From: a virus
Virus record (IMG/VR): IMGVR_UViG_3300005337_000032
Coordinates: 1 to 40,149 of that record
DNA: 40,149 nucleotides
Direction: 5' to 3' (one strand)
How positions within the stretch are numbered: position 1 is the first letter of the stretch; every line of letters begins with the position of its first letter. The notes under the pieces are model-generated. The model was not told the origin of the DNA, made no database searches, and saw only the letters and a program-made list of their open reading frames with translations. A program made the position numbers and the translations under genes. Positions 21,351-36,010 of the stretch are shown here, in pieces.

Positions 21351-21393
21351 GGCGGTGGCTCCCCGGCGTGGTGCTGGCTTCCTGACACCACTA

Positions 21394-21422
21394 ACTATAC
21401 GCACGCCGTGCGTAATATGCCA
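21394..21422 (-). promoter_or_regulatory. family I promoter/operator P1
   Basis: Read leftward: -35-like TGGCAT, an exact 17-bp spacer holding the dyad GCAC-GGC-GTGC, and -10 TATAGT ending at 21394. It drives the 131-aa gene with a leader of about 37 bases. Confidence 0.75.
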
Positions 21423-21430
21423 GTCGACAG

Positions 21431-21450
21431 GGAGTGCTCCGCGTCACTTC
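21431..21450. repeat. 20-bp repeated 3'-end element, copy 1
   Basis: 19 of 20 bases match the copy at 35520-35539. It spans the stop codon of the leftward HTH gene and contains the dyad GTGCT-CCGC-GTCAC. It lies between that gene and promoter P1. Confidence 0.7.
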
Positions 21451-21635
21451 GCCCGCGGCGCGCGGTTCCCTCGTCCGGGCCGAGCGGCGTTCCAGGCGTC
21501 GATCCGCTCCGCGGTCCAGCCGCGCGTGCCGCCGACCATCACGTCCGGCTCCGGCAGGCGGTAGCGGGTCAGCGTGCCCGGCACGACGCCGAGCCGGGCC
21601 GCGACCTCCTTCAGCGACAGGTAGTGCTTCGTCAC
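21444..21635 (-). CDS. excisionase/MerR-like helix-turn-helix protein
   Basis: A 63-aa protein with the AlpA/HTH_17 pattern HYLSLKEVAARLGVVPGTLT followed by a wing-like VMVGGTRGWTAERIDAWNAA. Proteins of this sort act as recombination directionality factors or small regulators. GTG 21635 follows AGGAGA at a good distance. It is third in the operon from P2. It could be the partner that makes the serine integrase excise, or the reader of family I sites; neither can be decided here. Confidence 0.8.
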   Translation of the reverse strand: MTKHYLSLKEVAARLGVVPGTLTRYRLPEPDVMVGGTRGWTAERIDAWNAARPGRGNRAPRAK

Positions 21636-21646
21636 GGTCTCGTCTC

Positions 21647-21796
21647 CTAGCGGCACGGGGTGCCATCGGCTTGTCCTGCAGGTGTGAACCGGTCGCACTC
21701 GGAGCACTCGGTGCACGGGCCGCGCTCGTAGCGTTCTCCGCCGTGCCACTCCACGAGGTGGTCGCGGCGGTGATGCCCGCAGGTGCACCTGGTCAC
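21647..21796 (-). CDS. small cysteine-rich (zinc-binding) protein
   Basis: A 49-aa protein with C4, C6, C28, C31 and C34 and several histidines (TRCTCGHHRRDHLVEWHGGE), the look of a short zinc ribbon. The GTG overlaps the stop of the preceding leftward gene, so it is translationally coupled. No function is known. Confidence 0.7.
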   Translation of the reverse strand: MTRCTCGHHRRDHLVEWHGGERYERGPCTECSECDRFTPAGQADGTPCR

Positions 21797-22059
21797 GCGA
21801 GGGCCGCCCGCCACTTGCGGCCCTCGGCGGTCAGCCGCCGGTAGACCGGGCTGTCGGTGTCGGTGGGCAGGCTCAGCCGGGTGCCGTCGGCGAGCCGGGT
21901 GCCGTCCATGCGGTCCCAGACCCGGTCCCAGTCCACGCGCGGGCTGCTGTCCTGCCACTCCAGGCTGTCCCGCAAGGCGGCCATGACCTCCTCGGTGAGG
22001 TCAGCGGCCGTCTCAGGCTCCTGCCACTCCTGGCCCTCGTCGTCGGTGATGCGCTTCAC
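21793..22059 (-). CDS. small leftward protein (unknown)
   Basis: An 88-aa acidic protein (KRITDDEGQEWQEPETAADL, then DWDRVWDRMDGTRLADGTRL, ending in VYRRLTAEGRKWRAALA). The last part looks like a helix that may bind nucleic acid or protein. Start GTG 22059 has AGGAG seven bases upstream. First gene of the P2 operon. No family recognised. Confidence 0.75.
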   Translation of the reverse strand: MKRITDDEGQEWQEPETAADLTEEVMAALRDSLEWQDSSPRVDWDRVWDRMDGTRLADGTRLSLPTDTDSPVYRRLTAEGRKWRAALA

Positions 22060-22097
22060 GGTGTGCTCCTGTGCTGGGGGTCTCGGCTGGCTCCCCA

Positions 22098-22126
22098 AGG
22101 ATACGCACGCGGTGCGCGTTATGCAA
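22098..22126 (-). promoter_or_regulatory. family I promoter/operator P2
   Basis: Read leftward: -35 TTGCAT, 17-bp spacer holding GCAC-CGC-GTGC, -10 TATCCT ending at 22098. The best -35 of the five copies. It drives the three-gene operon 22059-21444. Confidence 0.8.
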
Positions 22127-22166
22127 CCTGGGCCAGGTCATGCTGGCCGAAACTCGCCGTCGTGCC

Positions 22167-22185
22167 TGTCTAACACCGACGGACA
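22167..22185. promoter_or_regulatory. family II operator A
   Basis: Dyad TGTCTAAC-ACC-GACGGACA in the divergent gap between the leftward P2 operon and the rightward gene at 22251. It lies upstream of the rightward gene and about 40 bp from P2, so it could affect either side. No clear -10 could be assigned to the rightward unit. Confidence 0.65.
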
Positions 22186-22250
22186 CAATGCGGTAGGAAA
22201 GGGACCAGGCACGGAGAGAACCCGCGCCGCCGTTGATGAGGGGGTAATTC

Positions 22251-22601
22251 GTGAGCGTGCACGAGCCGCAGCATGTGGCCGACCCAAGCGCCGTCAGTTC
22301 CTGGTCGCACCACCTGCCCGACGACTTCCTGCTGTGCCGAGACCTCGGCCACCTCTGGCGTCCGTTCACCGCTCGGTACAACCCCGAGGTCCACGCTTAC
22401 GAGCGGACCATGCGCTGCGGCCGGTGCAAGACCGACCGCGAGCAGACCCTGTCCCTGCGCGGCGAAGTGCTCCGAGGGCACTACACGTACACCGAGGGCT
22501 ACCAGGCCCCGGCCGGCCAGGGGCGGCTCACCGGAGACGCGAGAGGCGCGCTCCGAATCGAATCAGTGACCCGGCTCATCGGGCACGACGAGGGGAACTA
22601 G
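22251..22601 (+). CDS. putative zinc-binding protein (unknown)
   Basis: A 116-aa protein with a likely metal site: C29 and H34 (LLCRDLGHLW) and C56/C59 (MRCGRCKTDRE). The C-terminal part is basic (LRGEVLRGHYTYTEGYQAPA). GTG start after GAGGGGG. First gene of a short rightward operon governed by operator A. I have seen this general pattern in actinophages but cannot give a function. Confidence 0.78.
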   Translation: MSVHEPQHVADPSAVSSWSHHLPDDFLLCRDLGHLWRPFTARYNPEVHAYERTMRCGRCKTDREQTLSLRGEVLRGHYTYTEGYQAPAGQGRLTGDARGALRIESVTRLIGHDEGN

Positions 22602-22604
22602 AAC

Positions 22605-23219
22605 ATGGCACGCGAGGTCCAGATTCTGACCTGGTGCGACGTCTGCTACGCCGCAGAGGAGCACGTCCCGGTGGCCGCCACCCACGAGGTGATCGTGGAC
22701 GGCAAGGGCTACCTGATCGAACTGTGCGAGGCGCACGAGGTGGCGCTGTTCAAGCCGCTGCTGGGGCTCACCGAGCACGCCGCTGACCTGGACAAGGTCA
22801 AGGGGAAGCAGCCAGCCAAGAAGTCAACCAAGACGACGTCGGCCCTCACCGCCAGCACGCGCACCCGGACGCGCACGATAGCGACGGGCACCGACAGGGC
22901 TCTGCCGGTCGGCATCGTCTGCCCGGTCGCGCACTGCGGGCAGCCGTACCACGGGCGGAGCCAGAGCGCGATGGAGCAGCACGTCCGCATCATCCACGAG
23001 GTCACGTTCGCGACCCTGCTCGGAACGGAGTGCCCGGTCTGCGGAGAGACCTACGAGATGGTCGGTGCGCACGTCTCGAACAGCCACCCGGAGGTTTCGA
23101 CGCCAGCGCTCACGGGGATGACGGCAGCGTGGTGGTGGGCGTCCCAGAACGGCGACCCGCACGAGGTCATCAAGCGCTCCGGGCTGCTCCCGTTCGTCGT
23201 CGGAGCCGGGGATGACTGA
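22605..23219 (+). CDS. Lsr2-like N-terminal domain with two C2H2 zinc fingers
   Basis: A 204-aa protein. The N-terminus (MAREVQILTW, then HEVIVDGKGYLIELCEAHE) follows the pattern of the Lsr2 dimerisation domain but carries a zinc site C11-x2-C14 with C41-x2-H44. A basic Lys/Thr/Arg linker (about 65-98) is followed by two C2H2-type fingers: C106, C111, H126, H131 and C143, C146, H156, H161. Lsr2 family proteins silence AT-rich DNA and some phage copies help to keep lysogeny. The usual Lsr2 DNA-binding end is replaced here by the fingers. Binding of DNA is inferred. Confidence 0.75.
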   Translation: MAREVQILTWCDVCYAAEEHVPVAATHEVIVDGKGYLIELCEAHEVALFKPLLGLTEHAADLDKVKGKQPAKKSTKTTSALTASTRTRTRTIATGTDRALPVGIVCPVAHCGQPYHGRSQSAMEQHVRIIHEVTFATLLGTECPVCGETYEMVGAHVSNSHPEVSTPALTGMTAAWWWASQNGDPHEVIKRSGLLPFVVGAGDD

Positions 23220-23511
23220 CGGCCCCCAGGTCGACTTCCCGCCGGCCATCGACCTGTGGCTGCTGCACGGCAGCATGGGCACGGCGGTGATGACGGCCGA
23301 CGGGCCGCGCGTGTTCATGAGGCTCGCTGCGCGGCTCAACCACGGCGACGAGCAGGACGACCGGACCTACGTCCTCGACCAGGGGCAGGTCACCCACGTC
23401 ATCGCCGGGCTGATGCAGATGGGCTGGTCCGCGTTCGGCCGGCGGTCGCTGATGGAAGGCATGGCGGAACACCTCGGTGTGCCGGACGACATGGTTCCAG
23501 GGGAGTTGTAG
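23212..23511 (+). CDS. small protein coupled to the zinc-finger gene (unknown)
   Basis: A 99-aa protein (PAIDLWLLHGSMGTAVMTAD at the start; VLDQGQVTHVIAGLMQMGWS later), probably a single small alpha/beta domain. The ATG lies 8 bp inside the zinc-finger gene, showing coupling. No family recognised. Confidence 0.72.
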   Translation: MTDGPQVDFPPAIDLWLLHGSMGTAVMTADGPRVFMRLAARLNHGDEQDDRTYVLDQGQVTHVIAGLMQMGWSAFGRRSLMEGMAEHLGVPDDMVPGEL

Positions 23512-23527
23512 ACGGGGGTCGGTCGGA

Positions 23528-23686
23528 GTGAGCGAACAGGGCGACGCGGCCTACGCCAAGGCGTACGAGGCGGGCTACGAGGAGGGGTACAACAACGGCT
23601 ACGACGAGGGGTACGCCGCCGCGCTGGACGGCGATCCGGAGGAGGACGAGCGGCGTCCCATCGTGGACGTCATCGACTCGCTGTGA
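23528..23686 (+). CDS. short Gly-Tyr repeat protein
   Basis: A 52-aa protein with a four-residue period (AGYEEGYNNGYDEGYAAALDG), similar in look to the GX3 motif of Yae1-like proteins. The rest is acidic. The GTG has GGTCGGA before it, a weak ribosome site. Last gene of the short rightward operon. Function unknown. Confidence 0.65.
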   Translation: MSEQGDAAYAKAYEAGYEEGYNNGYDEGYAAALDGDPEEDERRPIVDVIDSL

Positions 23687-23698
23687 GTGATCCGCATC
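23685..23698. repeat. 14-bp dyad after the rightward operon
   Basis: GTGAT-CCGC-ATCAC directly at the stop of the Gly-Tyr repeat gene. It resembles the dyads at 21433, 35019 and 35522, all placed at the ends of genes. Confidence 0.5.
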
Positions 23699-23788
23699 AC
23701 ACTGGATGCCGCGACGCGCTGACCTGCGGAAACGCACAGAATCGCGTCCGGGGGTAAGGACCGCGGGGTGGGGCCTCGACGCGACACA

Positions 23789-23828
23789 GGGCAACGTGTG
23801 GCCTCACAGGGGGTCATCCGAGTTGCCC
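23789..23828. other. candidate attP (40-bp inverted-repeat site near the integrase)
   Basis: GGGCAAC at 23789-23795 is mirrored by GTTGCCC at 23822-23828, with imperfect symmetry continuing inward and an asymmetric core near 23806-23812. It lies in a 175-bp stretch (23687-23861) in which I see no convincing gene, about 300 bp past the 3' end of the serine integrase. Size, symmetry and place suit a serine-integrase attP. No attB is available to compare. Confidence 0.4.
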
Positions 23829-23861
23829 GAATGCGCTCCGCCGGCCCGCGAGAACTTGCGT

Positions 23862-24071
23862 TCATCGGCTACGGTGTGCCACCGAGGACCCCGCCGTCCG
23901 CTTCCTGACAAGGCTCCCGGCGGGGTCCTCGCCATGTGCGGCGAGGGCCACCCGCCGGGCGGCTGGCCCGAGGAGGCGCTGGATGTCGCGGCGCTGCTCG
24001 TCGGTGAGCGGCGGCGCAGCATCGGCCATCGCCTGGCAGTAGGCGGATTCCTCGTCGGTCAGGTCTCGCAT
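23862..24071 (-). CDS. small leftward protein (unknown)
   Basis: A 69-aa protein with a typical small actinophage start (MRDLTDEESAYCQAMADAAP, then LTDEQRRDIQRLLGPAARR). ATG 24071 has AGGTGA at a good distance. The last third is encoded within a strong hairpin (23883-23931), so its C-terminus may be functionally unimportant. It is preceded by a tandem pair of family II operators. Confidence 0.72.
   Translation of the reverse strand: MRDLTDEESAYCQAMADAAPPLTDEQRRDIQRLLGPAARRVALAAHGEDPAGSLVRKRTAGSSVAHRSR
23883..23931. terminator. large hairpin, possible terminator
   Basis: A perfect 14-bp stem (23883-23896 with 23918-23931) and a 21-base loop. It could end the rightward operon 22251-23686 and shield the leftward gene it overlaps. 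No T run follows on either strand, so a transcript structure other than a terminator is possible. Confidence 0.5.
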
Positions 24072-24113
24072 CGTCTGTCACCTTTGGACGCCGTTGTCCA
24101 ACGACTCTAGACG
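24072..24113. promoter_or_regulatory. family II tandem operators F2 and F
   Basis: F2 CGTCTGTC-ACC-TTTGGACG at 24072-24090 and F TGTCCAAC-GAC-TCTAGACG at 24095-24113, starts 23 bp apart. They occupy the whole leader and likely promoter of the 69-aa leftward gene, F2 abutting its ATG and overlapping its ribosome site. Confidence 0.65.
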
Positions 24114-24129
24114 GGCCGACCATCGGCGT

Positions 24130-25560
24130 CTACAGGGTGAGCGCGCCCTTGAAGGCCACCTTCACCGTGCGGTGGTCGAAGTCGCGACCCCGACCCTGCG
24201 GGTAGACCGTGGCGACCAGCAGGCGCTGGATCAGCGCGCGCTTCACCGAGATCGACCCCTCGGCGTCCCAGGCGGCCCGCGCACCGGCACCCGCGAACTT
24301 CGCAAACTCCGGCATCGGCTCCGCGACCCGCCGCCGCGTCATGAGCACCTGCCGGTCCCGGGCGGCCTCGTCGACCTCGGCGTCGTAGCGCGCCTCGGTC
24401 AGGCGGCCCTCCTTGAACTTCTTCCAGGCCATCCCCTCGGCGGCGTCCACCGCGTCCAGGGCGGCGTCGATCTCGGCCAGCGCGTCGGCGTCCCCTCCGA
24501 GCAGCGCGGGCGCGTCCGGCTTCGAGAGCCGGTCGAGCATCGCGCCCACCACGATGGCCTCGACGTCGTCCTGCTTGCGCCGCACCCCGTGGCACCCCGG
24601 CTTCACGCAGTAGTAGGCGTTCGCGCGGCCCTTGCTGACCAGCACCCGCATCCCGGTCTCGCACTTGCCGCACAGCACCAGGCCCGACAGCAGGTGGACC
24701 ACCGAGCCGTCGTGGGCGACCGCTCGCCCCTTGGTGGTCAGCAGGTTGGTCACCCGGTCCTGCTCCTCGTCGGTGAGGATCGCGGGCCAGTCGCCGCGCT
24801 GCCCGGCGAGCACCTTGCCCTGGTAGACGTACCTGCCGCAGTTGCGCTCCCGCAGCATCACCAGGCGCAGGTTCGTGGAGTCCCACTCGCCACCCTTCAC
24901 GGTCCGCAGCCCGCGCCGGTTGAAGTCCTGGACGATGGCGTACCGCGACTCCCCGGCGAGCATCCGGCGGGCGGCCTCCCGGATCACCCCGGCCGCGACG
25001 TCGTCCAGCAGGTCCGGTCCGCCGACCGGGTTCGCCCGCCAGCCGTAGGGGACCTTCCCTGCCCGACGGCCCTTCTTCGCCATCTCCGCCAGGGCGTCGG
25101 TGACGCGCTCGGCGGTGCGCTCGGCCTCGGCCGCGTCCCACGCGGCGACCGTGCGGGCGACCCCTCGGCCGTCGGCGGTGGCGTAGTTGTGCTCCATCGA
25201 CTTCACGGTAACGATCTGGATTCCCGACTCGCCCAACTCGACGAGGTCTTCAAACTCGCGCGGGCGGCGGGTCAGGCGCGACTGGCTGTAGGCGAGGATC
25301 ACGTCAAACTCCCCGGCGCGGGCGCGGGCAATCATGTCGTTCCACGCGGGCCGGTTCTTCTTCGTCTTCTTCGTGCGGTTCGAGGCACCGAAGTCGTTGT
25401 CGGTGAACACCTCGACCACCACCCACCCCGGGCGGTTCGCGACGAGCGCCTGGGTGTGGGTGTCCTGGAGGTCGACCGACTCCTCCAGGCCCTTCTTGTC
25501 CTTGGACACCCGGCGGTAGATCGCGACGCGCATGGTGTCGCCGGCGAGGAGGATGGTCAT
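24130..25560 (-). CDS. int: large serine integrase
   Basis: A 476-aa recombinase. The catalytic domain begins with MRVAIYRRVS, the nucleophile being Ser19 (counting from ATG 25560), and includes YSQSRLTRRPREFEDLVEL. The recombinase domain has KKGRRAGKVPYGW, and a zinc ribbon follows (LVLCGKCETGM, then YYCVKPGCHG). A helical coiled-coil part (ALAEIDAALDAVDAAEGMAW) closes the protein, as in phiC31-type enzymes. It integrates phage DNA between attP and attB. ATG 25560 has GGAG in a leader like that of the 131-aa gene; ATG 25533 is a possible alternative, nine codons downstream. Confidence 0.95.
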   Translation of the reverse strand: MTILLAGDTMRVAIYRRVSKDKKGLEESVDLQDTHTQALVANRPGWVVVEVFTDNDFGASNRTKKTKKNRPAWNDMIARARAGEFDVILAYSQSRLTRRPREFEDLVELGESGIQIVTVKSMEHNYATADGRGVARTVAAWDAAEAERTAERVTDALAEMAKKGRRAGKVPYGWRANPVGGPDLLDDVAAGVIREAARRMLAGESRYAIVQDFNRRGLRTVKGGEWDSTNLRLVMLRERNCGRYVYQGKVLAGQRGDWPAILTDEEQDRVTNLLTTKGRAVAHDGSVVHLLSGLVLCGKCETGMRVLVSKGRANAYYCVKPGCHGVRRKQDDVEAIVVGAMLDRLSKPDAPALLGGDADALAEIDAALDAVDAAEGMAWKKFKEGRLTEARYDAEVDEAARDRQVLMTRRRVAEPMPEFAKFAGAGARAAWDAEGSISVKRALIQRLLVATVYPQGRGRDFDHRTVKVAFKGALTL

Positions 25561-25591
25561 GGCGGTGGCTCCTTCGTGCTGGTCTTCCTGA
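25558..25591 (-). repeat. integrase leader resembling that of the 131-aa gene
   Basis: The leader contains TCAGGAAGACCAGCAC and then GGAGCCACCGCCATGA. The same two blocks, slightly spaced apart, lie at 21348-21386 before the 131-aa leftward gene. Outside the leaders the two genes do not look related. Confidence 0.65.
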
Positions 25592-25613
25592 CGATCCGAA
25601 GGTAGCACCGACC

Positions 25614-25649
25614 AGGTTTCCCCGGGGGGAAGCGCGCGGGTTAAAACCT
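25614..25649. repeat. inverted repeat between the integrase and the repressor operon
   Basis: AGGTTT at 25614-25619 is mirrored by AAACCT at 25644-25649 around a CCCCGGGG palindrome. It lies one base past the stop of the leftward gene ending at 25650. It could be a terminator for the repressor operon, part of the integrase promoter, or a second attP candidate. Confidence 0.45.
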
Positions 25650-25970
25650 CTACGTCTGCAGGTCAGTCGGGTAGAGGGCGGCGTTCATCGCATCGACCCG
25701 ACGCTGAAGGTCGCGCAGGTCGCCCTTCGCGACCATGACCACCGAGAGCGTGATGCCCGGCACCTTGCCGTTGAGCCAGTACCCGCCGAGGTGAGGTCCG
25801 ACCGGCACGAGGATCGCCCCGAGGTTGCGGACCTTGGTGAGTTCCTCGCTCATCAGCAGCAGGGAGGTCTGCCACTCGCGCGCGCCGTCCACGATCAGGA
25901 ACTCGAACCGCACGATGCCTCGGGCGAGTTCAGTGAGCCGTTCGGCGCTGGCCCTGCGGATGACCGTCAC
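25650..25970 (-). CDS. repressor-operon partner protein (unknown)
   Basis: A 106-aa protein (MTVIRRASAERLTELARGIV, then VRNLGAILVPVGPHLGGYWL and KGDLRDLQRRVDAMNAALYP). It looks like a small alpha/beta fold with a C-terminal helix. GTG 25970 follows the repressor stop by three bases, so the two are surely co-transcribed. No HExxH metalloprotease motif, so it is not an ImmA-type antirepressor. Function unknown. Confidence 0.75.
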   Translation of the reverse strand: MTVIRRASAERLTELARGIVRFEFLIVDGAREWQTSLLLMSEELTKVRNLGAILVPVGPHLGGYWLNGKVPGITLSVVMVAKGDLRDLQRRVDAMNAALYPTDLQT

Positions 25971-25973
25971 GGT

Positions 25974-26378
25974 TCAGTGGCTGCCATTGTTGAGGAGCGC
26001 GCTGCCGTCAGATGGCGTCAGCGAAATGATGAAACCCGCGACTATTTCCTGCTCGCGCTTCGGCAGGCGGCGAATCTGCGCGGCCAAGGCGTCCGCGCGG
26101 TCTGGACCTGCGCGGACGTCCCCCTTTGACCGGTAGCCAGCGGAGATGATCGCGGCGTCCTCGACGACTTCGATAGGTAGACCAAGCCCTGCGGAAAGGG
26201 CGGCGACCGTTTCCGGTTCAGCGGTCATGGGTGGCTTCTTGTTGATGATGAAGCCGATAGTCGAACGGCTCAGTCCGGTCAGGGCTGCGAGGTCGGTGTA
26301 CGAGGCGCGCGTGCGCGCGCGGTAGTCGACCAGCAGTCGTGCCAGCCCGACGTACTGCTCATCCGGCTTGCCTGTCAT
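25974..26378 (-). CDS. putative immunity repressor (XRE-type HTH)
   Basis: A 134-aa protein with one helix-turn-helix at about residues 27-46 (YTDLAALTGLSRSTIGFIIN), followed by helices and an unrelated C-terminal part (LAAQIRRLPKREQEIVAGFI). There is no LexA/S24 peptidase domain, so induction by RecA cleavage is not expected. ATG 26378 is chosen because family II operator B begins two bases upstream, suggesting self-control. The gene uses more A/T than its neighbours, a sign of separate origin. Repressor identity rests on HTH, orientation and operator placement. Confidence 0.75.
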   Translation of the reverse strand: MTGKPDEQYVGLARLLVDYRARTRASYTDLAALTGLSRSTIGFIINKKPPMTAEPETVAALSAGLGLPIEVVEDAAIISAGYRSKGDVRAGPDRADALAAQIRRLPKREQEIVAGFIISLTPSDGSALLNNGSH

Positions 26379-26379
26379 G

Positions 26380-26398
26380 TGTCTAACGTTAACGGACA
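26380..26398. promoter_or_regulatory. family II operator B at the repressor start
   Basis: The most symmetrical copy: TGTCTAAC-GTT-AACGGACA. It begins one base upstream of the repressor ATG, so bound protein would block initiation or early transcription of the repressor gene. Confidence 0.72.
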
Positions 26399-26449
26399 CC
26401 CGTCGAATTGGACCCACGTTCGACCTGTGCGTCACTCGAACGAGACCGG

Positions 26450-26491
26450 CGTCCGACAGCCCTAGACGGTGCCGGCCAACGGTGTTAGACA
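26450..26491 (+). promoter_or_regulatory. family II tandem operators G and C forming a rightward promoter
   Basis: G CGTCCGAC-AGC-CCTAGACG at 26450-26468 and C CGGCCAAC-GGT-GTTAGACA at 26473-26491, starts 23 bp apart. Their ends supply TAGACG (26463-26468, -35-like) and TAGACA (26486-26491, -10-like) with a 17-bp spacer. The predicted start falls on GTG 26498. The hexamers are far from TATAAT, so promoter activity is inferred from spacing and from the same layout at 32305. Confidence 0.6.
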
Positions 26492-26497
26492 GGACTG

Positions 26498-26791
26498 GTG
26501 ACCCGCTACGGACCCCGTCCCCCAGTCGTCGTCGTCAAGCCCAACGCGTTCATCCAGGCGCTCGACGAGTCCGGCCTCACCGTGCGCCCGCTCGCCCACG
26601 CCGCCGCCATGCCGGTGTCCACCGTCGGCGCGATCTGCACCGCCGCGCGGCGCGCCGTCGAGGACAACCTGCCCGCCGAGGACTTCCCGCACACCACCCT
26701 GTTCAACGCCCGAGCCCTGGCCCGCGCCCTCGGCAGGCAGCCCGCCGACCTGTTCGCCGAGCCGTCGGTGATCGCCGGGGGCCTGCGGTGA
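26498..26791 (+). CDS. Cro-like helix-turn-helix protein
   Basis: A 97-aa protein with a helix-turn-helix pattern at about 18-47 (FIQALDESGLTVRPLAHAAA, MPVSTVGAICTAARR) and a second helical segment (LFNARALARALGRQPADLFA) typical of XRE proteins. It is the first gene on the rightward side of the immunity region, opposite the repressor, the classical Cro place. No ribosome site; the mRNA is predicted to start at the GTG. Overlaps the exonuclease gene by 4 bp. Confidence 0.72.
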   Translation: MTRYGPRPPVVVVKPNAFIQALDESGLTVRPLAHAAAMPVSTVGAICTAARRAVEDNLPAEDFPHTTLFNARALARALGRQPADLFAEPSVIAGGLR

Positions 26792-29984: not shown

Positions 29985-30466
29985 TCTACATCCCCGTCGA
30001 GATGTTCCCGGGGAGGGTGATGAACGCGAACCACCGGCCCACCCCGCACGAGCGGCACCGGGAGACCCGGTCGTGGCGGGACCTCGGCGTCGTCGTCGCG
30101 CGAGCCGCGCACATGCGACCGATGCCGCCACCCGTCCTGGTCGTCGCGGAGTTCCGGTACAAGACCAACCACATCCACGACACCGCGAACAACTACCCGA
30201 CGATCAAGGCGCTCCTGGACGGCTTCGTGGAGGCCGGGATGCTCGCAGGCGACGACGACCGCCGGCTCGCTGGGCCGTGGCTCGTGCGGATGGAACCCAA
30301 CGGCCCGCCGCTGATCCGGCTGACCCTCCGCCCGCTCCGTCAGGTGGCCGACGCCGCCGCTCTCGTCAGGGGGAAGCATGACCCTCGACATTCCACTGCA
30401 CTCGGCCGTGGGGATCACCTACCGGCAGTTGGACCACTGGACGCGGCAGGGGTGGCTGCGGGCTGA
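29969..30466 (+). CDS. RusA-like Holliday junction resolvase
   Basis: A 165-aa protein. The RusA pattern is clear: H70-D71 in NHIHDTANNYPTIKALLDG, Lys80, Asp84 and the acidic D95-D97 (LAGDDDRRLAGPW). It resolves branched DNA formed in replication or recombination. The last 30 residues are encoded in DNA shared with the next gene (89-bp overlap) and look unlike family members, so the functional domain probably ends near residue 132. Confidence 0.87.
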   Translation: MADRVIYIPVEMFPGRVMNANHRPTPHERHRETRSWRDLGVVVARAAHMRPMPPPVLVVAEFRYKTNHIHDTANNYPTIKALLDGFVEAGMLAGDDDRRLAGPWLVRMEPNGPPLIRLTLRPLRQVADAAALVRGKHDPRHSTALGRGDHLPAVGPLDAAGVAAG

Positions 30467-30689
30467 GAACGCCACACCCGGGTCCGGGCACGCCCGGGTG
30501 TGGCCCCCCGGGGAGTTGATGATCGCCGGGCTGATGCGCCGGTTCACCCTCGCCGGCTTCTCCGCGTCGCGTGCCGCCGCGATGGCCCGCGACGCGTACG
30601 AGACCGCGGACCTCGGGGACGGCTCGTTCACCTTCCTGCTGGCTGGGGGGCTCGTGCTGTCCGGGCACGTAGAACGGGTGGCGTCGTGA
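30378..30689 (+). CDS. MerR-like helix-turn-helix protein
   Basis: A 103-aa protein. GITYRQLDHWTRQGWLRAEN, followed by HARVWPPGELMIAGLMRRF, is the MerR-type winged helix with the conserved W-x2-x-G-W turn. A C-terminal helix follows (AAAMARDAYETADLG). It lies just before the replisome organiser; it may help at the origin or regulate early genes. Confidence 0.78.
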   Translation: MTLDIPLHSAVGITYRQLDHWTRQGWLRAENATPGSGHARVWPPGELMIAGLMRRFTLAGFSASRAAAMARDAYETADLGDGSFTFLLAGGLVLSGHVERVAS

Positions 30690-31207
30690 CGACCCGGATC
30701 GGACGCGGCGGGTGGGTGCGGGTGTGGCGCTCCATCGCGTCCGACACCGACTTCCGGGCACTGTCCGTGCCGGCGCAGTGGCTGTACTTCACCTTGCTGT
30801 CCTCGCCGGCCACCGAGTTGTGCGGGCGGACCGAGTGGCACGCGGGCCGACTCGCGACGCGGTCCGCATCGGCCGACCGCGCGACCGTGGTGGCGGCCGG
30901 GATGGAACTGTCCGAGGGCCGGTTCATCATCATCGACACCGGCACCGGGGAGGCGCTGATCCGGACCTACGTGCGGCACGCCGAGGTGCTGCGCAACCCG
31001 TTCCTCGCCAAGTCGGTGCGCGCCGGGTACGAGCGGCTGATGTCCGACCGCCTGCGCGGCGTCCTGGTCTGGGAACTGCGCCGGATGCATGTGGATAACC
31101 CCACCCTGCACTGGGGATCGCTTGTGGACGTGCTGGGGATGGACGCGATTGACCCGGGCGACCTTCACAGCATGTTCGACTCCGGGACGGACCCCGACGA
31201 CTCGTGA
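30686..31207 (+). CDS. replisome organiser-like protein
   Basis: A 173-aa protein. VRVWRSIASDTDFRALSVPA, then QWLYFTLLSSPATELCGRTE, is the winged-helix N-terminal domain seen in phage replication initiators. A second helical part follows (HAEVLRNPFLAKSVRAGYER). It is shorter than many relatives and lacks a visible DnaD/DnaC-loading tail. GTG overlaps the MerR-like gene. A DnaA box lies in its 3' part and iterons follow its stop, so it probably binds the origin. Confidence 0.72.
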   Translation: MTTRIGRGGWVRVWRSIASDTDFRALSVPAQWLYFTLLSSPATELCGRTEWHAGRLATRSASADRATVVAAGMELSEGRFIIIDTGTGEALIRTYVRHAEVLRNPFLAKSVRAGYERLMSDRLRGVLVWELRRMHVDNPTLHWGSLVDVLGMDAIDPGDLHSMFDSGTDPDDS

Positions 31208-31383
31208 GGTCTCCGCCACGAAGCCCCAGGTCAAGCGGTCCCCGGGGTAGGCGCTCGGGGTAGGCGCTCGGGGTAACCGCTTGGGGTAGGCGCTACCGGT
31301 AGACCTGTAGACATAAGGCTTTTGGTCACCTCTCGTAACCAAACTCACCAGAGCAAAGGTGTGGACAACGCGCATGTGGACAA
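31090..31383. other. candidate replication origin (DnaA boxes, iterons, AT-rich stretch)
   Basis: TGTGGATAA at 31090-31098 is a perfect DnaA box (reverse of TTATCCACA). Four tandem 13-bp iterons of type GGGGTAGGCGCTC run 31244-31295, with an inverted partial copy at 31233-31243. A stretch poor in GC follows (31305-31350) with a TTGGT...ACCAA hairpin. Two copies of TGTGGACAA (31360-31368, 31375-31383) match the DnaA box preferred in Streptomyces. The stretch 31208-31393 has no gene. It sits directly after the replisome organiser. Confidence 0.72.
31244..31295 (+). repeat. four tandem 13-bp iterons
   Basis: Copies at 31244-31256 and 31257-31269 are identical (GGGGTAGGCGCTC). 31270-31282 differs at three positions (GGGGTAACCGCTT) and 31283-31295 at one. 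Period is exactly 13 bp. Typical of binding sites for a replication initiator. Confidence 0.88.
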
Positions 31384-31393
31384 GGAGCGCCCG

Positions 31394-31984
31394 ATGACGC
31401 GATCCGGCGACCGGCTCGCCTTCACGACGGCCAAGCAGGACCGCGTCAAGGAGTGGTTGGTCCGCACCGCGAACGAGTGCGTGGACCTCGCCGTGCGGTA
31501 CACCGAACTGCACGGCCGGATCGCTGGCGGCTCCCCGATGGGCGTCGCCTCCCCGTCGCCGTTCGGACGTCCGCCGTTGCGGTTGGACGTCGTCGACACC
31601 CTCCGCGCCGTCGAGGCGATGACGGACCACCGGGTGAACCTCGCTCGTGGCGCTCTGAGGCTCGGTCTGCGGCCCCCGGGTCCCACAGACCACCCGAGGA
31701 CCGTTCGGGCTCTCACATGGCTCTCACGGGCGTTTCCGACGGTGATGGAGGCGGACCCGGAGACCGCACGGGACGCCGCCCGGGACGTGTTCCACTGGAA
31801 CGCGCGCTGCGGGCTGTCCCTCGGGGTGATCCCGCGGGCGTTCCGGATCGCCGAGCCGTGCCCGGAGTGCGGCGGGGAGACGCTCGTCGCGGACCCGATG
31901 TCGTGGACGGTGACCTGCGTGCGGGCCGGCTGCCCGTACCGGGTGCCGGTGCAGACCGCGGTGACGGTGTGGTCCACGGGGTGA
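31394..31984 (+). CDS. zinc-ribbon protein after the origin (unknown)
   Basis: A 196-aa protein, mostly helical, with a C-terminal zinc ribbon (PCPECGGETLVADP, then VTCVRAGCPYRVP). ATG 31394 has AAGGAG six bases upstream; the frame is open further up, but that stretch holds the DnaA boxes. The position suggests a part in replication or early regulation. No family recognised. Confidence 0.75.
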   Translation: MTRSGDRLAFTTAKQDRVKEWLVRTANECVDLAVRYTELHGRIAGGSPMGVASPSPFGRPPLRLDVVDTLRAVEAMTDHRVNLARGALRLGLRPPGPTDHPRTVRALTWLSRAFPTVMEADPETARDAARDVFHWNARCGLSLGVIPRAFRIAEPCPECGGETLVADPMSWTVTCVRAGCPYRVPVQTAVTVWSTG

Positions 31985-32019
31985 CGCGTACCACATGAGG
32001 GTGTATTCCTTGGGGATGC

Positions 32020-32038
32020 TGTCCGACCGTGTTGGACG
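32020..32038. promoter_or_regulatory. family II operator E
   Basis: TGTCCGAC-CGT-GTTGGACG, a near-perfect dyad in the 84-bp gap before the gene at 32069. A promoter here would govern 32069-33994, but no convincing -10 could be fixed. Confidence 0.68.
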
Positions 32039-32068
32039 GCATTCCACTGCACGGGGGCGGAGTCAACG

Positions 32069-32320
32069 ATGACCGAGGCTGGCTGGACGGCACCTGGAGA
32101 CGACGGGCTGCTGATGCGCGAACCGGACGTGCTCATAACCGACACCGGCCCGATCCCCGTCGTGACGGTCTGGGACGAGGACGAGGGCCTGCGGGTGTTC
32201 CTCGGCAACCGCGAGCCACCACTGACCCGGTCCGGGCTGCGCCTGGTCGGACACGCGCTGCTCGCCTACGCCGAGATGCAGGACCCCAAGGTCCCCGAAC
32301 GATCTGTCCCACGGGACTAG
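32069..32320 (+). CDS. small acidic protein (unknown)
   Basis: An 83-aa protein with a beta part (EPDVLITDTGPIPVVTVWDE) and a helix (GLRLVGHALLAYAEMQ). First gene after operator E. Its 3' end carries operator D2. No family recognised. Confidence 0.72.
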   Translation: MTEAGWTAPGDDGLLMREPDVLITDTGPIPVVTVWDEDEGLRVFLGNREPPLTRSGLRLVGHALLAYAEMQDPKVPERSVPRD

Positions 32321-32346
32321 ACGCGACCGGCCGACGGTGTTAGACA
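32305..32346 (+). promoter_or_regulatory. family II tandem operators D2 and D forming a rightward promoter
   Basis: D2 TGTCCCAC-GGG-ACTAGACG at 32305-32323 and D CGGCCGAC-GGT-GTTAGACA at 32328-32346, starts 23 bp apart. TAGACG (32318-32323) and TAGACA (32341-32346) are again separated by 17 bp, exactly as at 26450-26491. The predicted start is one base before ATG 32354. Confidence 0.62.
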
Positions 32347-32353
32347 CGGAGGC

Positions 32354-32530
32354 ATGGACCGACTCGACCTGGACACCCCGGACCACGTTCTGAACGCCGC
32401 GACAGCGGACATCGAGAGCCTCTACATCCTCGACGGCATCTCGGACGACCTGATCGTCACCTTCCGCGTGTGGGACTCGATGTACCGCAGCGCCGTCGCC
32501 CGGGATCGCGCCGGGCTGGTGCACCGGTGA
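32354..32530 (+). CDS. 58-aa protein after tandem operators (unknown)
   Basis: A short protein (MDRLDLDTPDHVLNAATADI, then DGISDDLIVTFRVWDSMYRS). It begins one base after the predicted transcription start, so its mRNA may be nearly leaderless, though GGAGG lies just upstream. The stop overlaps the next GTG. No family recognised. Confidence 0.72.
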   Translation: MDRLDLDTPDHVLNAATADIESLYILDGISDDLIVTFRVWDSMYRSAVARDRAGLVHR

Positions 32531-32781
32531 ACGCGCCGGCGGTGCAGGCCGCGGTGGTGCAGCGGGTGGTCCCCGGGCACACCGTGGACAAGGGACCGGA
32601 CGGCCAGGTCGCGGAGGGCTGGGGCGTCGCGTTCCAGGTCCGCCGGCTCGTCGTCGACCTCGCCGAGGGCGCGCACCGCAACGGCCAGTCCGTGGACTGG
32701 ACGACCCTGGTGATCAGCGCTGCGCCGGCACCGAACGGGTCCGACGGTATCGTGGTCAGCGCGCGGGCGGGCACCCGGTGA
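32527..32781 (+). CDS. small protein (unknown)
   Basis: An 84-aa beta-rich protein (VQRVVPGHTVDKGPDGQVAE, then VAFQVRRLVVDLAEGAHRNG). 4-bp overlaps at both ends place it in one operon with its neighbours. No family recognised. Confidence 0.7.
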   Translation: MNAPAVQAAVVQRVVPGHTVDKGPDGQVAEGWGVAFQVRRLVVDLAEGAHRNGQSVDWTTLVISAAPAPNGSDGIVVSARAGTR

Positions 32782-32972
32782 GCGCCCCCGGGCTCGCCGC
32801 AGCCGCGCAGAAGGTGCGCGCCACCCGCGAGGAGCAGACCGCCGCGACGGCAGCCCGCGGCGAGGCGGAGACCGTCCTGGAGCACGCCCGGCAGGCGGAG
32901 CGGGAGGCCCGGCTCCGGTTCGAGGACGCGTGCGCGGACCTGTACGCGGCGGCGGTCGAGGCGCAGCCGTGA
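32778..32972 (+). CDS. short coiled-coil protein (unknown)
   Basis: A 64-aa protein that is almost entirely one Ala/Glu/Arg-rich helix (ATREEQTAATAARGEAETVL, then EHARQAEREARLRFEDA), probably an oligomer-forming coiled coil. Overlaps both neighbours by 4 bp. Function unknown. Confidence 0.7.
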   Translation: MSAPGLAAAAQKVRATREEQTAATAARGEAETVLEHARQAEREARLRFEDACADLYAAAVEAQP

Positions 32973-33349
32973 TCGCGTTCCACGGTGGAGCCCCTGGGTT
33001 GCGACCCGGCGACTGGATCGTGCCTCGCTCGCCGGAGGACACCGCGCACTTCGTGGACGGGTGCCCGGTGTGCGAGGCGCGGCGTCGCGGCGAGCGGCTT
33101 CCGGAGGACGACCTGGACCCGACGCTGGTGTACGTGACGACCGAGCGCGACTACGCGACGGTGTTCGCGGACGGCTACCCGCGCGGCGGGCTGTACCGGG
33201 TGGAGACCCAGGGCGAGTTGACGCCCTCCCCGGACCCGGTGCCGTCGTGGGGTGTGCCGCGCGCGCGGGTGGTGTCCGTGCTGGACCGCCTGGTCCGGCT
33301 CAGCGTGCACGACCGGCGTCGGCTGCAACGCCGCTACCTCGGCCGGTGA
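32969..33349 (+). CDS. ADP-ribosyltransferase-like small protein
   Basis: A 126-aa protein. FHGGAPGLRPGDWIVP with His5, LVYVTTERDYATVFADGYP with Tyr55 and the Thr pair, and GGLYRVETQGELTPSPDP follow the strand and motif order of Arr/KptA-type ADP-ribosyltransferases. An insert holds C32-x2-C35. Such enzymes transfer ADP-ribose from NAD to protein, nucleic acid or drugs. It is three bases from a DNA methyltransferase gene, which hints at a joint role in DNA modification or host takeover. Family call is by eye only. Confidence 0.6.
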   Translation: MIAFHGGAPGLRPGDWIVPRSPEDTAHFVDGCPVCEARRRGERLPEDDLDPTLVYVTTERDYATVFADGYPRGGLYRVETQGELTPSPDPVPSWGVPRARVVSVLDRLVRLSVHDRRRLQRRYLGR

Positions 33350-33352
33350 CCC

Positions 33353-33994
33353 ATGCGGCTCGTGGACCTGTTCTGCTGCGCCGGGGGTGCGTCCGCTGGT
33401 TACGCGCGCGCAGGGTTCGAGGTGCGGGGCGTCGACATCGTGAAGCAGCCTGAGTACCCGTACCCGTTCACCCTGGGCGACGCCCTGCGCGAAGACCTGC
33501 GCGACGCCGACGCGATCCACGCCTCGCCGCCATGCAAGGTGCACACCCCGCTGCGGCACACCGCGCGCCGGGAGATGAACCACGTCGACCTGATCGGCCC
33601 GACGCGCGACCTGCTGGTGGCGACCGGGCTGCCGTACGTGATCGAGAACGTGGTCGGCGCTCGTCCGGTCATGCTCGACCCGGTCTGCTACTGCGGGTCG
33701 TCGTTCGGGCTCGCGGTGCGTCGCCACCGACTGTTCGAGTCGAACTTCCCGCTCGTCGCGCCAGCGTGCGACCACGCCTCCCAACCGGTCGTCCTGGGCG
33801 TCTACGGCACGGGCGGATCGGACTCCGGGCGCGCCGCACGAGGGGGAGGTGGTGGGGTGAAGGTCTCAGGCCGTGCCGCCGCCGACGCGCTGGGCATCGA
33901 CTGGACGACCAATCAGACCCGGCTCTCCCAGGCGATCCCCCCGGCGTACACCGAGCACATCGGTCGCCAACTGCTCGCCGTCCTTCAGCGGTAG
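33353..33994 (+). CDS. DNA cytosine-C5 methyltransferase
   Basis: A 213-aa enzyme. Motif I is DLFCCAGGASAGYARAGF (about 5-22), the catalytic SPPC lies at 58-61 (Cys61), ENV at 98-100, and RRHRLFE near 123-129. Conserved end motifs (LSQAIPPAYTEHIGRQLL) are present. The target-recognition part is very short, so the recognised sequence may be short. It may protect phage DNA from restriction. No matching restriction gene is seen. Converges with the leftward island, overlapping by 10 bp. Confidence 0.9.
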   Translation: MRLVDLFCCAGGASAGYARAGFEVRGVDIVKQPEYPYPFTLGDALREDLRDADAIHASPPCKVHTPLRHTARREMNHVDLIGPTRDLLVATGLPYVIENVVGARPVMLDPVCYCGSSFGLAVRRHRLFESNFPLVAPACDHASQPVVLGVYGTGGSDSGRAARGGGGGVKVSGRAAADALGIDWTTNQTRLSQAIPPAYTEHIGRQLLAVLQR

Positions 33995-34125
33995 CCGACA
34001 ACCGCCCGGCGCTCGGCGTAGCCCTCAGCGGCGGCCAGGGTGCGGAAGGTGTGGCGTTCCACGCCGTTGGTCAGGGTGGTGAAGGTGCCGTCCGGGTTCG
34101 CGGTGACGACGGTGTTGGGGGTCAC
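33985..34125 (-). CDS. 46-aa leftward protein (unknown)
   Basis: A small protein (MTPNTVVTANPDGTFTTLTN, then GVERHTFRTLAAAEGYAERR) starting at a GTG three bases after the preceding leftward stop. A basic helical end suggests a small binding protein. Last gene of the P3 unit. Confidence 0.65.
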   Translation of the reverse strand: MTPNTVVTANPDGTFTTLTNGVERHTFRTLAAAEGYAERRAVVGYR

Positions 34126-34127
34126 GG

Positions 34128-34325
34128 TCAGGCCCCCTTGAACTTCGGGTTCGGCTTGCGGAAGGTGATCGTCATCTGGCCGGGCTTCGTCTTCAGGAAC
34201 CCGCGGCGGTACTCGGTGGCGACCTCCCAGCCGTCGTCCAGGTACTTCTGACGCTCCTTGGCCCCGGCGCTCGTGGTGCCGCTGAGGGTGACGGTCTTGA
34301 GGATGAACGGGTCGCGTCGGCTCAC
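34128..34325 (-). CDS. 65-aa basic leftward protein (unknown)
   Basis: A basic protein (FILKTVTLSGTTSAGAKERQ, then YLDDGWEVATEYRRGFLKTK). A pattern that I associate with small actinophage proteins of unknown function. GTG start almost touches the preceding stop. Confidence 0.72.
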   Translation of the reverse strand: MSRRDPFILKTVTLSGTTSAGAKERQKYLDDGWEVATEYRRGFLKTKPGQMTITFRKPNPKFKGA

Positions 34326-34326
34326 G

Positions 34327-34632
34327 TCACGCCTCCGCAGCGTCGGTGGCGGCGACGGTGCGCTCGGCGTCGCGCAGGTCGCGGTTGGCGTTCACCGCGT
34401 CCACTCGCGCCTCATCGAGCGCGGTGCGAGCGTCCAGAGCGCGGTCGGTGACAAGCCGGACGAGTCGCTGCGCGGCGGCGAGGTCGGCGTCAGCCTGGCG
34501 CATCTCGTGCTCGGCGTCGTGCACGCTCGCGCGGTAGTGCTGGGCGACCTCGCGGAGGTGCGGGAGAATCTTGGTGCGGTACTCGTCGAGCAGGGCGGCG
34601 TCGAGGCGCGCCTCGCGGTCGGTGTCGGTCAT
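34327..34632 (-). CDS. coiled-coil leftward protein (unknown)
   Basis: A 101-aa protein, helical throughout (HDAEHEMRQADADLAAAQRL, then TALDEARVDAVNANRDLRDA), likely a long antiparallel or dimeric coiled coil. ATG 34632 has AAGGAGCC at a good distance. Preceded by a hairpin that may limit read-through from P3. Confidence 0.72.
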   Translation of the reverse strand: MTDTDREARLDAALLDEYRTKILPHLREVAQHYRASVHDAEHEMRQADADLAAAQRLVRLVTDRALDARTALDEARVDAVNANRDLRDAERTVAATDAAEA

Positions 34633-34667
34633 CGGGACAGGCTCCTTCGGGTTGTGGGTGAAGCGGG

Positions 34668-34692
34668 CGGGCGGGGCACGAGGCCCCGCCCG
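34668..34692 (-). terminator. GC-rich hairpin between two leftward genes
   Basis: A perfect 10-bp stem (34668-34677 with 34683-34692) and five-base loop just past the stop of the 89-aa gene. No T run follows, so it may weaken rather than end transcription. Confidence 0.65.
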
Positions 34693-34701
34693 GCAGGTCG
34701 A

Positions 34702-34971
34702 TCAGGCGAGGTAGGCGGCGGCGACCGCGGTGAGGACGTCGATCCCGGTGGCCCGGAAGGTGGCCTGCGGGCCGGTGAAGACCTCGTTGGCGGTGCACGC
34801 GGACAGGATCGTGTCGGTGTCGTTGATCGCGATCCAGACCGCGCGGCTGCCGGAGACGATCAGCACGTTGCCGCGGTAGGCAGGCTTGATCGTGGCGGCG
34901 ATGCCGCCGTGGGCGAGGGTGTCGACCAGCCGGACGGCGAGGGCCATGGCGGGGTTCGCGGTGGTGTTCAT
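34702..34971 (-). CDS. 89-aa leftward protein, predicted leaderless (unknown)
   Basis: A small alpha/beta protein (MALAVRLVDTLAHGGIAATI, then RGNVLIVSGSRAVWIAINDT and ATGIDVLTAVAAAYLA). The -10 of P3 lies so that +1 is the A of ATG 34971. No family recognised. Confidence 0.75.
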   Translation of the reverse strand: MNTTANPAMALAVRLVDTLAHGGIAATIKPAYRGNVLIVSGSRAVWIAINDTDTILSACTANEVFTGPQATFRATGIDVLTAVAAAYLA

Positions 34972-34977
34972 GGCTCC

Positions 34978-35006
34978 ATCATACGCACGCGGTGCGGGTT
35001 ATCCCT
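34978..35006 (-). promoter_or_regulatory. family I promoter/operator P3
   Basis: Read leftward: -35-like AGGGAT, 17-bp spacer with GCAC-CGC-GTGC, -10 TATGAT ending at 34978. Expected +1 (seven bases on) is 34971, the first base of the ATG. Confidence 0.78.
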
Positions 35007-35018
35007 AGTGGGCCGCGG

Positions 35019-35030
35019 GTGATCCGTCAC
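35019..35030. repeat. 12-bp dyad at a gene end
   Basis: GTGATCCGTCAC, overlapping the stop of the 75-aa leftward gene and placed before promoter P3. A short form of the dyads at 21433, 23685 and 35522. Confidence 0.45.
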
Positions 35031-35254
35031 AGCCAGAGCCCGTCGTGGCGGACCACCTCGACTACCTCCCAGGTCCACCGCCCGGCCGTGCCGCGGTAGG
35101 AACCCTCGTACTGGCCGCCGGTCTGGTACGTCGTGGCGTACGGCAGCCAGCCGATCAGCGTTCCGGCGTCGGCGATCACCTCGGTGACCTCCAGCAGGTG
35201 GGTGCGGCCGTTGCGCCGCACCCGGACCACGTCCCCGGGCTCGATGGCGGTCAC
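35027..35254 (-). CDS. 75-aa SH3-like leftward protein (unknown)
   Basis: A beta-rich protein (IEPGDVVRVRRNGRTHLLEV, then GTAGRWTWEVVEVVRHDGLW) similar in pattern to small SH3/KOW folds. GTG overlaps the preceding stop by 4 bp. Second gene from P4. Confidence 0.72.
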   Translation of the reverse strand: MTAIEPGDVVRVRRNGRTHLLEVTEVIADAGTLIGWLPYATTYQTGGQYEGSYRGTAGRWTWEVVEVVRHDGLWL

Positions 35255-35475
35255 GCCTCCGTCCGGACCCAGGCGGTGGTCCCGGGCTTCTTGGCGGAGG
35301 CCGCGGTCTGGACCAGACCGGCCTCCGCGAGGGCACCGAGCAGGGCGCGGATGGTGGCGACCGGCGGCGCGGCGGGGAACAGCGCGCGCTTGATCTCGGC
35401 CGGGGTGCGCGGCGTCGAGGTGACGGCGTCGAGGATGACCCGCTGGGCTCGGGGGAGGTTCTCGGTGGTGGGCAT
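35251..35475 (-). CDS. winged-helix leftward protein, predicted leaderless
   Basis: A 74-aa protein with a wHTH pattern (RAQRVILDAVTSTPRTPAEI, then VATIRALLGALAEAGLVQTA). Could be a regulator of the leftward units. The P4 -10 places +1 on the first base of ATG 35475. Confidence 0.76.
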   Translation of the reverse strand: MPTTENLPRAQRVILDAVTSTPRTPAEIKRALFPAAPPVATIRALLGALAEAGLVQTAASAKKPGTTAWVRTEA

Positions 35476-35481
35476 GGCTCT

Positions 35482-35510
35482 AGTATACGCACGCGGTGCG
35501 CGTTATGGGT
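35482..35510 (-). promoter_or_regulatory. family I promoter/operator P4
   Basis: Read leftward: -35-like ACCCAT, 17-bp spacer with GCAC-CGC-GTGC, -10 TATACT ending at 35482. Expected +1 is 35475, the first base of the ATG. Confidence 0.8.
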
Positions 35511-35519
35511 AGCGGGCGA

Positions 35520-35539
35520 GGAGTGCTCCGCATCACTTC
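35520..35539. repeat. 20-bp repeated 3'-end element, copy 2
   Basis: Differs from the copy at 21431-21450 at one base. It spans the stop codon of the 65-aa leftward gene and precedes promoter P4, the same layout as copy 1 and P1. Confidence 0.7.
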
Positions 35540-35730
35540 AGCCCTCGCACGCCACGCTCGTCGCACGCGGTCTGGACCTCACCGGCCGAGCCGCTGGCGT
35601 CCTCCATCGCGGCGCGCACACCACCGAGGTCACCCTCGGCCAGTGCGCGCTCGGCGTCCCGGACGTCCTCGCGGATGCGGCGCAACCACTCGCGCACCTC
35701 CGCCTTCGTCATGGGTCGGTCGGCGCTCAC
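35533..35730 (-). CDS. 65-aa helical leftward protein (unknown)
   Basis: A charged helical protein (MTKAEVREWLRRIREDVRDA, then ALAEGDLGGVRAAMEDASGS). GTG start overlaps the preceding stop by 4 bp. Second gene from P5. Confidence 0.72.
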   Translation of the reverse strand: MSADRPMTKAEVREWLRRIREDVRDAERALAEGDLGGVRAAMEDASGSAGEVQTACDERGVRGLK

Positions 35731-35894
35731 CGGGCGTCCCTCTCGGCAGCAGCCTGTGCCTGCTTCCTGGTCTGGTAGGTCCCGACGAACTTGCCGTCCA
35801 CCTTCAAGACCCAGACGTGGCCTGCCTGGTGTGCACCGTCGCCCTCCTTGGTGATCTCAACTCGTCCGTCGGGGGTCGGTTCACTCGTTCGCAT
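35727..35894 (-). CDS. 55-aa DUF2188-like leftward protein, predicted leaderless
   Basis: A small protein (AHQAGHVWVLKVDGKFVGTY, then QTRKQAQAAAERDAR) with the look of a DUF2188-type fold: a strand with W/V, then a strand, then a basic helix. ATG 35894 lies eight bases past the P5 -10. Confidence 0.72.
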   Translation of the reverse strand: MRTSEPTPDGRVEITKEGDGAHQAGHVWVLKVDGKFVGTYQTRKQAQAAAERDAR

Positions 35895-35901
35895 GGGACC
35901 T

Positions 35902-35930
35902 ACTATACGCACGGGGTGCGGGTTATGCCT
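35902..35930 (-). promoter_or_regulatory. family I promoter/operator P5
   Basis: Read leftward: -35-like AGGCAT, 17-bp spacer with GCAC-CCC-GTGC, -10 TATAGT ending at 35902. Expected +1 is 35895, one base before the ATG. Confidence 0.77.
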
Positions 35931-35967
35931 AGCGGTGGGGCGTGTCGGTGTTGCTCCAGCAGGGTGA

Positions 35968-35986: not shown

Positions 35987-36010
35987 GTGACCACTGACCA
36001 GGGGGACGAC

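Follow-up and report, generated by a model that had tools for sequence, protein, structure and literature searches.

A repeated promoter with a dyad in its spacer precedes small leftward genes of a temperate phage

Five copies of one promoter

The window analysed here, the 40,149 nucleotides (nt) of IMG/VR virus record IMGVR_UViG_3300005337_000032, is the entire record (GC 70.8%). It comes from a temperate phage with a GC-rich bacterial host, and its overall layout is that of an ordinary temperate siphophage. Five 29-base-pair (bp) sites, P1 to P5, stand in front of small leftward genes, each with a -10 hexamer and a 17-bp spacer that carries an inverted repeat (dyad), CGCAC-N3-GTGCG:

P1, 21394..21422, minus strand: TGGCAT-17-TATAGT with the perfect dyad TACGCAC-GGC-GTGCGTA, 43 nt from the ATG of a gene for 131 amino acids (aa)
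P2, 22098..22126, minus strand: TTGCAT-17-TATCCT, driving genes for an 88-aa, a 49-aa and a 63-aa helix-turn-helix (HTH) protein
P3, 34978..35006, minus strand: AGGGAT-17-TATGAT, putative leaderless start (6 nt) of an 89-aa gene
P4, 35482..35510, minus strand: ACCCAT-17-TATACT, putative leaderless start (6 nt) of a 74-aa winged HTH gene
P5, 35902..35930, minus strand: AGGCAT-17-TATAGT, putative leaderless start (7 nt) of a 55-aa gene

The composite pattern ATANNNCGCACNNCGTGCGTATNNT matches the window exactly five times, on the minus strand only, with none expected from 100 dinucleotide shuffles, which bears out the sites and positions given in the initial annotation. There was no weaker sixth copy in the window, the next-best places (at least five mismatches) being the same sites on the opposite strand. 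The bare repeat GCAC-N3-GTGC is about threefold enriched (8 matches in the window vs 2.4 expected), three of the eight lying outside these promoters. An alignment anchored at the -10 shows no variation among the five copies in the dyad arms (CGCAC/GTGCG), in the ATA at -31..-29 or in the TAT...T of the -10, whereas the flanks are unconserved, with pairwise identities of 31% over 29 nt upstream and 35% over 37 nt downstream. Exact copies and invariant arms thus give good support to the proposal of a promoter-operator common to a group of small leftward genes, and the same design recurs in relatives.

The -10 reads TATNNT at every site, matching the actinobacterial sigma-A-type TANNNT at a suitable distance from the start, and the spacer is 17 bp throughout, with the dyad at -25 to -13 reaching the edge of the -10. 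The 17-bp register is correct because relatives have TTGCAT or TTGCAC at that place. This part of the promoter anatomy was described properly from the start, but the term "-35-like hexamer" was generous: P2 alone keeps TTG (TTGCAT), which is missing from P1, P3, P4 and P5. Sigma-70-like matches in 20800-36200 were confined to P1 and P5. The -10 of P3, P4 and P5 ends 6, 6 and 7 nt before the ATG, a geometry that is, as judged from sequence, the one of leaderless actinobacterial transcripts, and P1 and P2 have leaders of 43 and 38 nt, each with a Shine-Dalgarno-like sequence.

P3 and P4 have 86 bp in common (76%). In addition, GGAGCACTCC lies at 21431..21440 (minus strand), 8 bp upstream of the P1 hexamer, and its sole other copy in the window, at 35520-35529, lies 9 bp upstream of the P4 hexamer. 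We therefore regard both similarities as traces of copying.

Genes behind the sites

Twelve plausible small genes, and not eleven as counted previously, lie behind the five sites, all with intact open reading frames. Nor do the sites serve all small leftward units, since the repressor-integrase unit and an open reading frame at 23862-24071 have none. The layout is as follows:

Up to ~20.9 kb: DNA methyltransferase-like, terminase, portal, capsid and tail genes
20.9-22.1 kb: first leftward block
20955..21350, minus strand: 131-aa protein (P1 unit)
21444..21635, minus strand: 63-aa protein, last gene of the P2 operon
21647..21796, minus strand: 49-aa cysteine-rich protein (P2 operon)
21793..22059, minus strand: 88-aa protein, first gene of the P2 operon
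24.1-26.4 kb (24130-26378), leftward: repressor-serine integrase unit
Between this unit and the second leftward block, rightward: RecE/RecT and other early genes
34.0-35.9 kb: second leftward block, followed by rightward genes to the window end
33985..34971, minus strand: 89-aa, 101-aa, 65-aa and 46-aa genes (P3 unit)
35027..35475, minus strand: 74-aa winged-HTH-like and 75-aa genes (P4 unit)
35533..35894, minus strand: 55-aa (DUF2188-like, weak) and 65-aa genes (P5 unit)

Searches returned no relatives of the 131-aa protein in phage or viral collections, none of the 89-aa protein and none of the 74-aa protein in the phage collection. PADLOC, run on the leftward genes except the 55-aa gene, gave no defence assignment and one weak homing-endonuclease match. 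No intrinsic terminators were found in 20800-36200. A GC-rich inverted repeat without a T-run, GGGCGGGGCCTCGTGCCCCGCCC, follows the 89-aa gene at 34660-34700; it is a possible processing or attenuation site, and given this repeat the distal three genes of the P3 unit may be partly uncoupled.

No close DNA relative of the window was present in the phage collection. By capsid the nearest is Curtobacterium phage Elener, together with Arthrobacter and Gordonia phages, at identities up to ~42%, and the RecT relatives were too distant for use in comparison.

The pattern outside the window

Scanning the viral contigs of IMG/VR for exact matches did not find the full pattern, and a blastn search of phages with the site returned nothing. 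As comparison by promoter identity had failed, relatives were sought through proteins. The search of other phages suggested in the initial annotation thus yielded no copy of the full pattern, but the same layout, with other dyad sequences, upstream of homologues of the 63-aa HTH protein.

Among the genomes of 84,980 species the full pattern had six single matches in unrelated taxa, and one that was checked (L017, Enteractinococcus) lies inside the thiD coding sequence. At up to three mismatches it occurs in 2 of 396 Micrococcales genomes, with a control near the same background, and the Arthrobacter phage version of the promoter (see below) was absent from 295 genomes of one family of this order. 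Since the pattern is rare or at background in the bacterial genomes searched, the reader of the dyad should be phage-borne, and a host reader appears unlikely.

The 63-aa HTH protein and its relatives

The 63-aa protein encoded last in the P2 operon matches phrog_597 (2e-25), its Pfam matches being below cut-offs. AlphaFold (pLDDT 83) predicts a beta-alpha-alpha-beta-beta-alpha winged HTH of the MerR type, and the best matches of the model in the PDB are RacA, BldC, BmrR, NmlR and MtaN at a moderate E of ~0.01-0.05; with moderate confidence, the model points to a MerR-type DNA-binding fold. Its homologue in phage Butters, gp32, is reported as one of the genes of the variable region that the lysogen expresses (PMC7542560). 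This suggests that the HTH has a role in lysogeny, by extrapolation perhaps also in the window phage.

Homologues were found at 80 viral loci, commonly with a TTG-17/18-TATANT promoter (TTGC-17-TATANT layout) 270-490 nt upstream. Related promoters were chosen by -35 and -10 only, TTG being required and symmetry ignored; of the 35 distinct spacers among them, 11 hold dyads that exceed those of shuffled spacers in strength (p<0.05; Fisher p 6e-6). The dyads vary by phage (TACATCG..CGATGTA, ATACATGT..ACATGTAT, ATACACCCG..CGGGTGTAT, AGCATCG..CGATGCT and others), and several loci (L087, L055, L073) repeat their own operator two to three times. Gordonia phages Kita and Phistory, Microbacterium phage R1 and the IMG/VR loci thus resemble the window in having this promoter upstream of the HTH gene, often with a dyad in its spacer that extends to the -10; unlike the window they usually have one copy per locus, a phage-specific dyad sequence and a cargo of mostly two tiny membrane proteins. 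The dyad of Bifidobacterium PMBT6 is imperfect (TACATAC-CGC-GTTATTA) and was not counted. As P2 keeps the TTGCAT of the family, it looks like the probable ancestral copy from which the other sites were derived.

Roughly 350 nt before the HTH gene, loci L042, L043, L048, L049, L059 and others have a conserved operon for a 32-45-aa basic peptide with a single transmembrane segment and a 48-56-aa membrane protein, which by its sequence is a putative small prophage-borne membrane module.

Arthrobacter phages that share both the HTH and the repressor (HTH identity to the 63-aa protein 57-67% over the core) have a 26-bp sequence, CAATACACGCCTAACCGTGCTANACT, in two to three copies per genome, all leftward and in the same block as the HTH homologue. 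There are 28 near-identical sites in 11 genomes, and the sequence upstream of about -37 is not conserved. In RedFox a paired change in the dyad restores symmetry (CACGGCTAGCCGTG). Abidatro, Andrew, Kuleana, RedFox and relatives are like the window in that a leftward promoter is repeated between lysis and integrase/repressor genes, has its dyad directly next to the -10 and hardly any -35, if one at all, and shares its block with an HTH homologue; the repressor is homologous as well. They differ in the dyad (CACG-N6-CGTG vs CGCAC-N3-GTGCG), in fewer copies and in a long conserved leader in the transcripts. The dyad together with the conserved leader TAGAGAGTCAGCAAGG (e.g. L011 at 20563, 22613 and 23050, minus strand) is present in 37 phage records. 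Among the Arthrobacter records 37 have the promoter and 37 the HTH, numbers that are equal as counts. No published description of this repeated promoter was found in the papers searched, which does not prove its absence.

The immunity repressor has a motif of its own

A further phage regulator is a 134-aa XRE-type protein at 25974..26378 (minus strand), which is homologous to the annotated immunity repressor of Arthrobacter phages and lacks a CGCAC operator; the CGCAC dyad is not present at the repressor region, in contrast to what an operator set of the immunity repressor would show. The sites found there are of another kind:

26381..26490, plus strand: immunity-type operators GTCTAAC..GGAC / TTAGAC, a different motif
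22168, 24073, 24096, 26381, 26451, 26474, 32306 and 35969: GTCTA-N7-TAGAC-like sites

The window has 20 GTCTA-N7-TAGAC-like sites (up to two mismatches) vs 4.8 expected. They cluster at the repressor gene and are, on sequence grounds, probably the immunity operators; those at 22168 and 35969 lie in the two intergenic regions between divergent genes, with 40-50 bp separating them from P2 and P5. The repressor genes of relatives carry the GTCTA..TAGAC motif as well. Because the immunity repressor has its own motif at its gene, in the window and in relatives, the leftward dyad is a second, separate operator. Among the Arthrobacter phages pairwise repressor identity is likewise high (67-94%) and therefore does not separate repressor from HTH as the reader.

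The repressor gene appears to be leaderless, with a GTTAAC/GTTAGAC operator directly before the ATG (26376-26399). In Elener (L009), promoters at 22936, 23416 and 36440 and a leftward one near 22900, four in both directions, have a common TCTAAC..GGGTTATAGT-like sequence. These repeated TCTAAC..GTTATAGT promoters were set aside, since they match the immunity-type half-site.

Comparison with known elements

The same dyad in several promoters of one genome, five exact matches vs none expected, is what a phage operator of a regulon shows. The TGTTCGG-N3-CCGAACA repeat of cluster O mycobacteriophages (Corndog) is likewise a dyad specific to the phage, with 7-3-7 geometry, numerous copies and no occurrence in the host, but it has >30 copies, most not at promoters, and its authors thought a transcriptional role unlikely (PMC4351075). 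The SAS and ESAS of cluster K, GGGATAGGAGCCC, are likewise short, repeated and placed immediately before gene starts, and ESAS has inverted repeats (PMC12699233); their sequence differs, and SAS had no match in the window at up to two mismatches. The cluster A stoperator GGTGGMTGTCAAG has no exact or one-mismatch copy in the window and none at P1-P5; its five two-mismatch matches (1.8 expected) were reached in 1 of 100 shuffles and do not identify the sites as stoperators. The actinobacterial LexA-type SOS box CGAAC-N4-GTTCG has no exact match in the window, and its three one-mismatch matches are at chance level, none of them at P1-P5. Promoters of the MerR family (BmrR, MtaN, NmlR) also have a dyad between -35 and -10, and the candidate reader has a MerR-type predicted fold; the window differs in that all five spacers have 17 bp, shorter than the 19-20 bp of MerR-type activator promoters, and the 63-aa protein has no sensor or coiled-coil part. 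In the literature searched, with partial coverage, we found no description of the window promoter family.

Discussion

We propose that the five sites would be copies of one phage-specific promoter-operator cassette, whose TANNNT -10 would be used by the host RNA polymerase (sigma-A type). A protein bound at a dyad touching the -10 (-25 to -13) blocks polymerase, and a dimeric phage protein on the CGCAC-N3-GTGCG dyad would do so by masking the spacer together with the margin of the -10. The dyads bound by MerR proteins lie between -35 and -10, and these proteins require a spacer of 19-20 bp to activate; as the spacer here is 17 bp, repression is the simpler expectation and a negatively autoregulated regulon is favoured. 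P2 drives the HTH gene and homologous operons have in-spacer dyads, so by guilt of association the 63-aa protein is our best guess for the reader and the best of the candidates that had been named, the host factor being disfavoured and the 74-aa protein having no relative in the phage collection although relatives have dyads. The 63-aa protein would then repress its own operon within a regulon independent of the immunity repressor, P1, P3, P4 and P5 would have arisen from P2 by copying, bringing extra accessory genes under the same control, and the regulon would probably be part of the lysogenic programme. That one regulator switches all twelve genes is inference, and the identity of the reader, the repression and the timing are likewise what we infer. 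Taken jointly, five copied cassettes with the 63-aa protein as repressor of an autoregulated, immunity-independent and probably lysogenic regulon are, in our judgement, at an even balance of probability.

Several observations weigh against this joint reading. The recognition helix covaries weakly with the spacer, at r 0.19 (p 0.015; r 0.15, p 0.04 as partial on the rest of the protein), but the rest of the protein, in a comparison where the register of three rows added by hand is slightly off, correlates better (r 0.37), and the signal is mostly shared ancestry. Spacers differ between loci whose HTHs are nearly identical (L064 vs L075; L107-L109), including Gordonia loci, and 24 of the 35 related promoters have no significant dyad. 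The operator of JanetJ occurs once in the 16 kb examined, and the four window copies without a TTG -35 could point to activation.

Another phage regulator, namely the immunity repressor, the Cro-like protein or the 74-aa winged HTH, might instead read the dyad with the 63-aa protein as cargo, which we consider rather unlikely. Autoregulation would fit the 74-aa protein, itself driven by P4, and nearly the same 63-aa protein with different spacers across loci is as expected for a faster-changing reader. However, the immunity operators GTCTA..TAGAC are distinct and located at the repressor gene, and in-spacer dyads occur in relatives, whereas the phage collection contains no relative of the 74-aa protein.

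It is less probable still that no dedicated reader exists and that a good promoter was copied with accessory genes, the dyad being carried along or serving promoter strength only. Copying did happen, as the P3/P4 and P1/P4 similarities indicate, and a clear dyad is missing from 24 of the 35 related promoters. Yet the arms stayed invariant while the flanks diverged to about one third identity, different phages have unrelated dyad sequences at the same place, and RedFox has its paired symmetric change.

A MerR-type activator that remodels DNA in the spacer, turns the promoters on and offsets the lost -35 of P1, P3, P4 and P5 is improbable: the predicted fold, the place of the dyad and the missing TTG of four copies agree with it, but MerR activators correct spacers of 19-20 bp and those here have 17 bp, a good TTG -35 is present in P2 and in most relatives (whose selection required it), and actinobacterial promoters often have a weak -35. 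A host regulator as the reader is very improbable given the near-absence of the window pattern from 396 Micrococcales genomes, the absence of the Arthrobacter version from 295 genomes of one family and just six unrelated single matches in the whole genome collection, even though these are collections and not the actual host.

Little is known about how temperate phages coordinate dispersed accessory (moron) genes other than through the immunity repressor. A recognisable cassette, a candidate reader of 63 residues and Arthrobacter and Gordonia laboratory phages of the same layout make the proposal directly testable, and the operator would be a means to list prophage-expressed genes from sequence alone. 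Tentatively, actinophages may carry a second, immunity-independent specificity system of a minimal MerR-fold protein and a phage-specific in-spacer operator, in which cassette copying would recruit new accessory genes into the lysogenic regulon and the operator would switch between phages like immunity groups.

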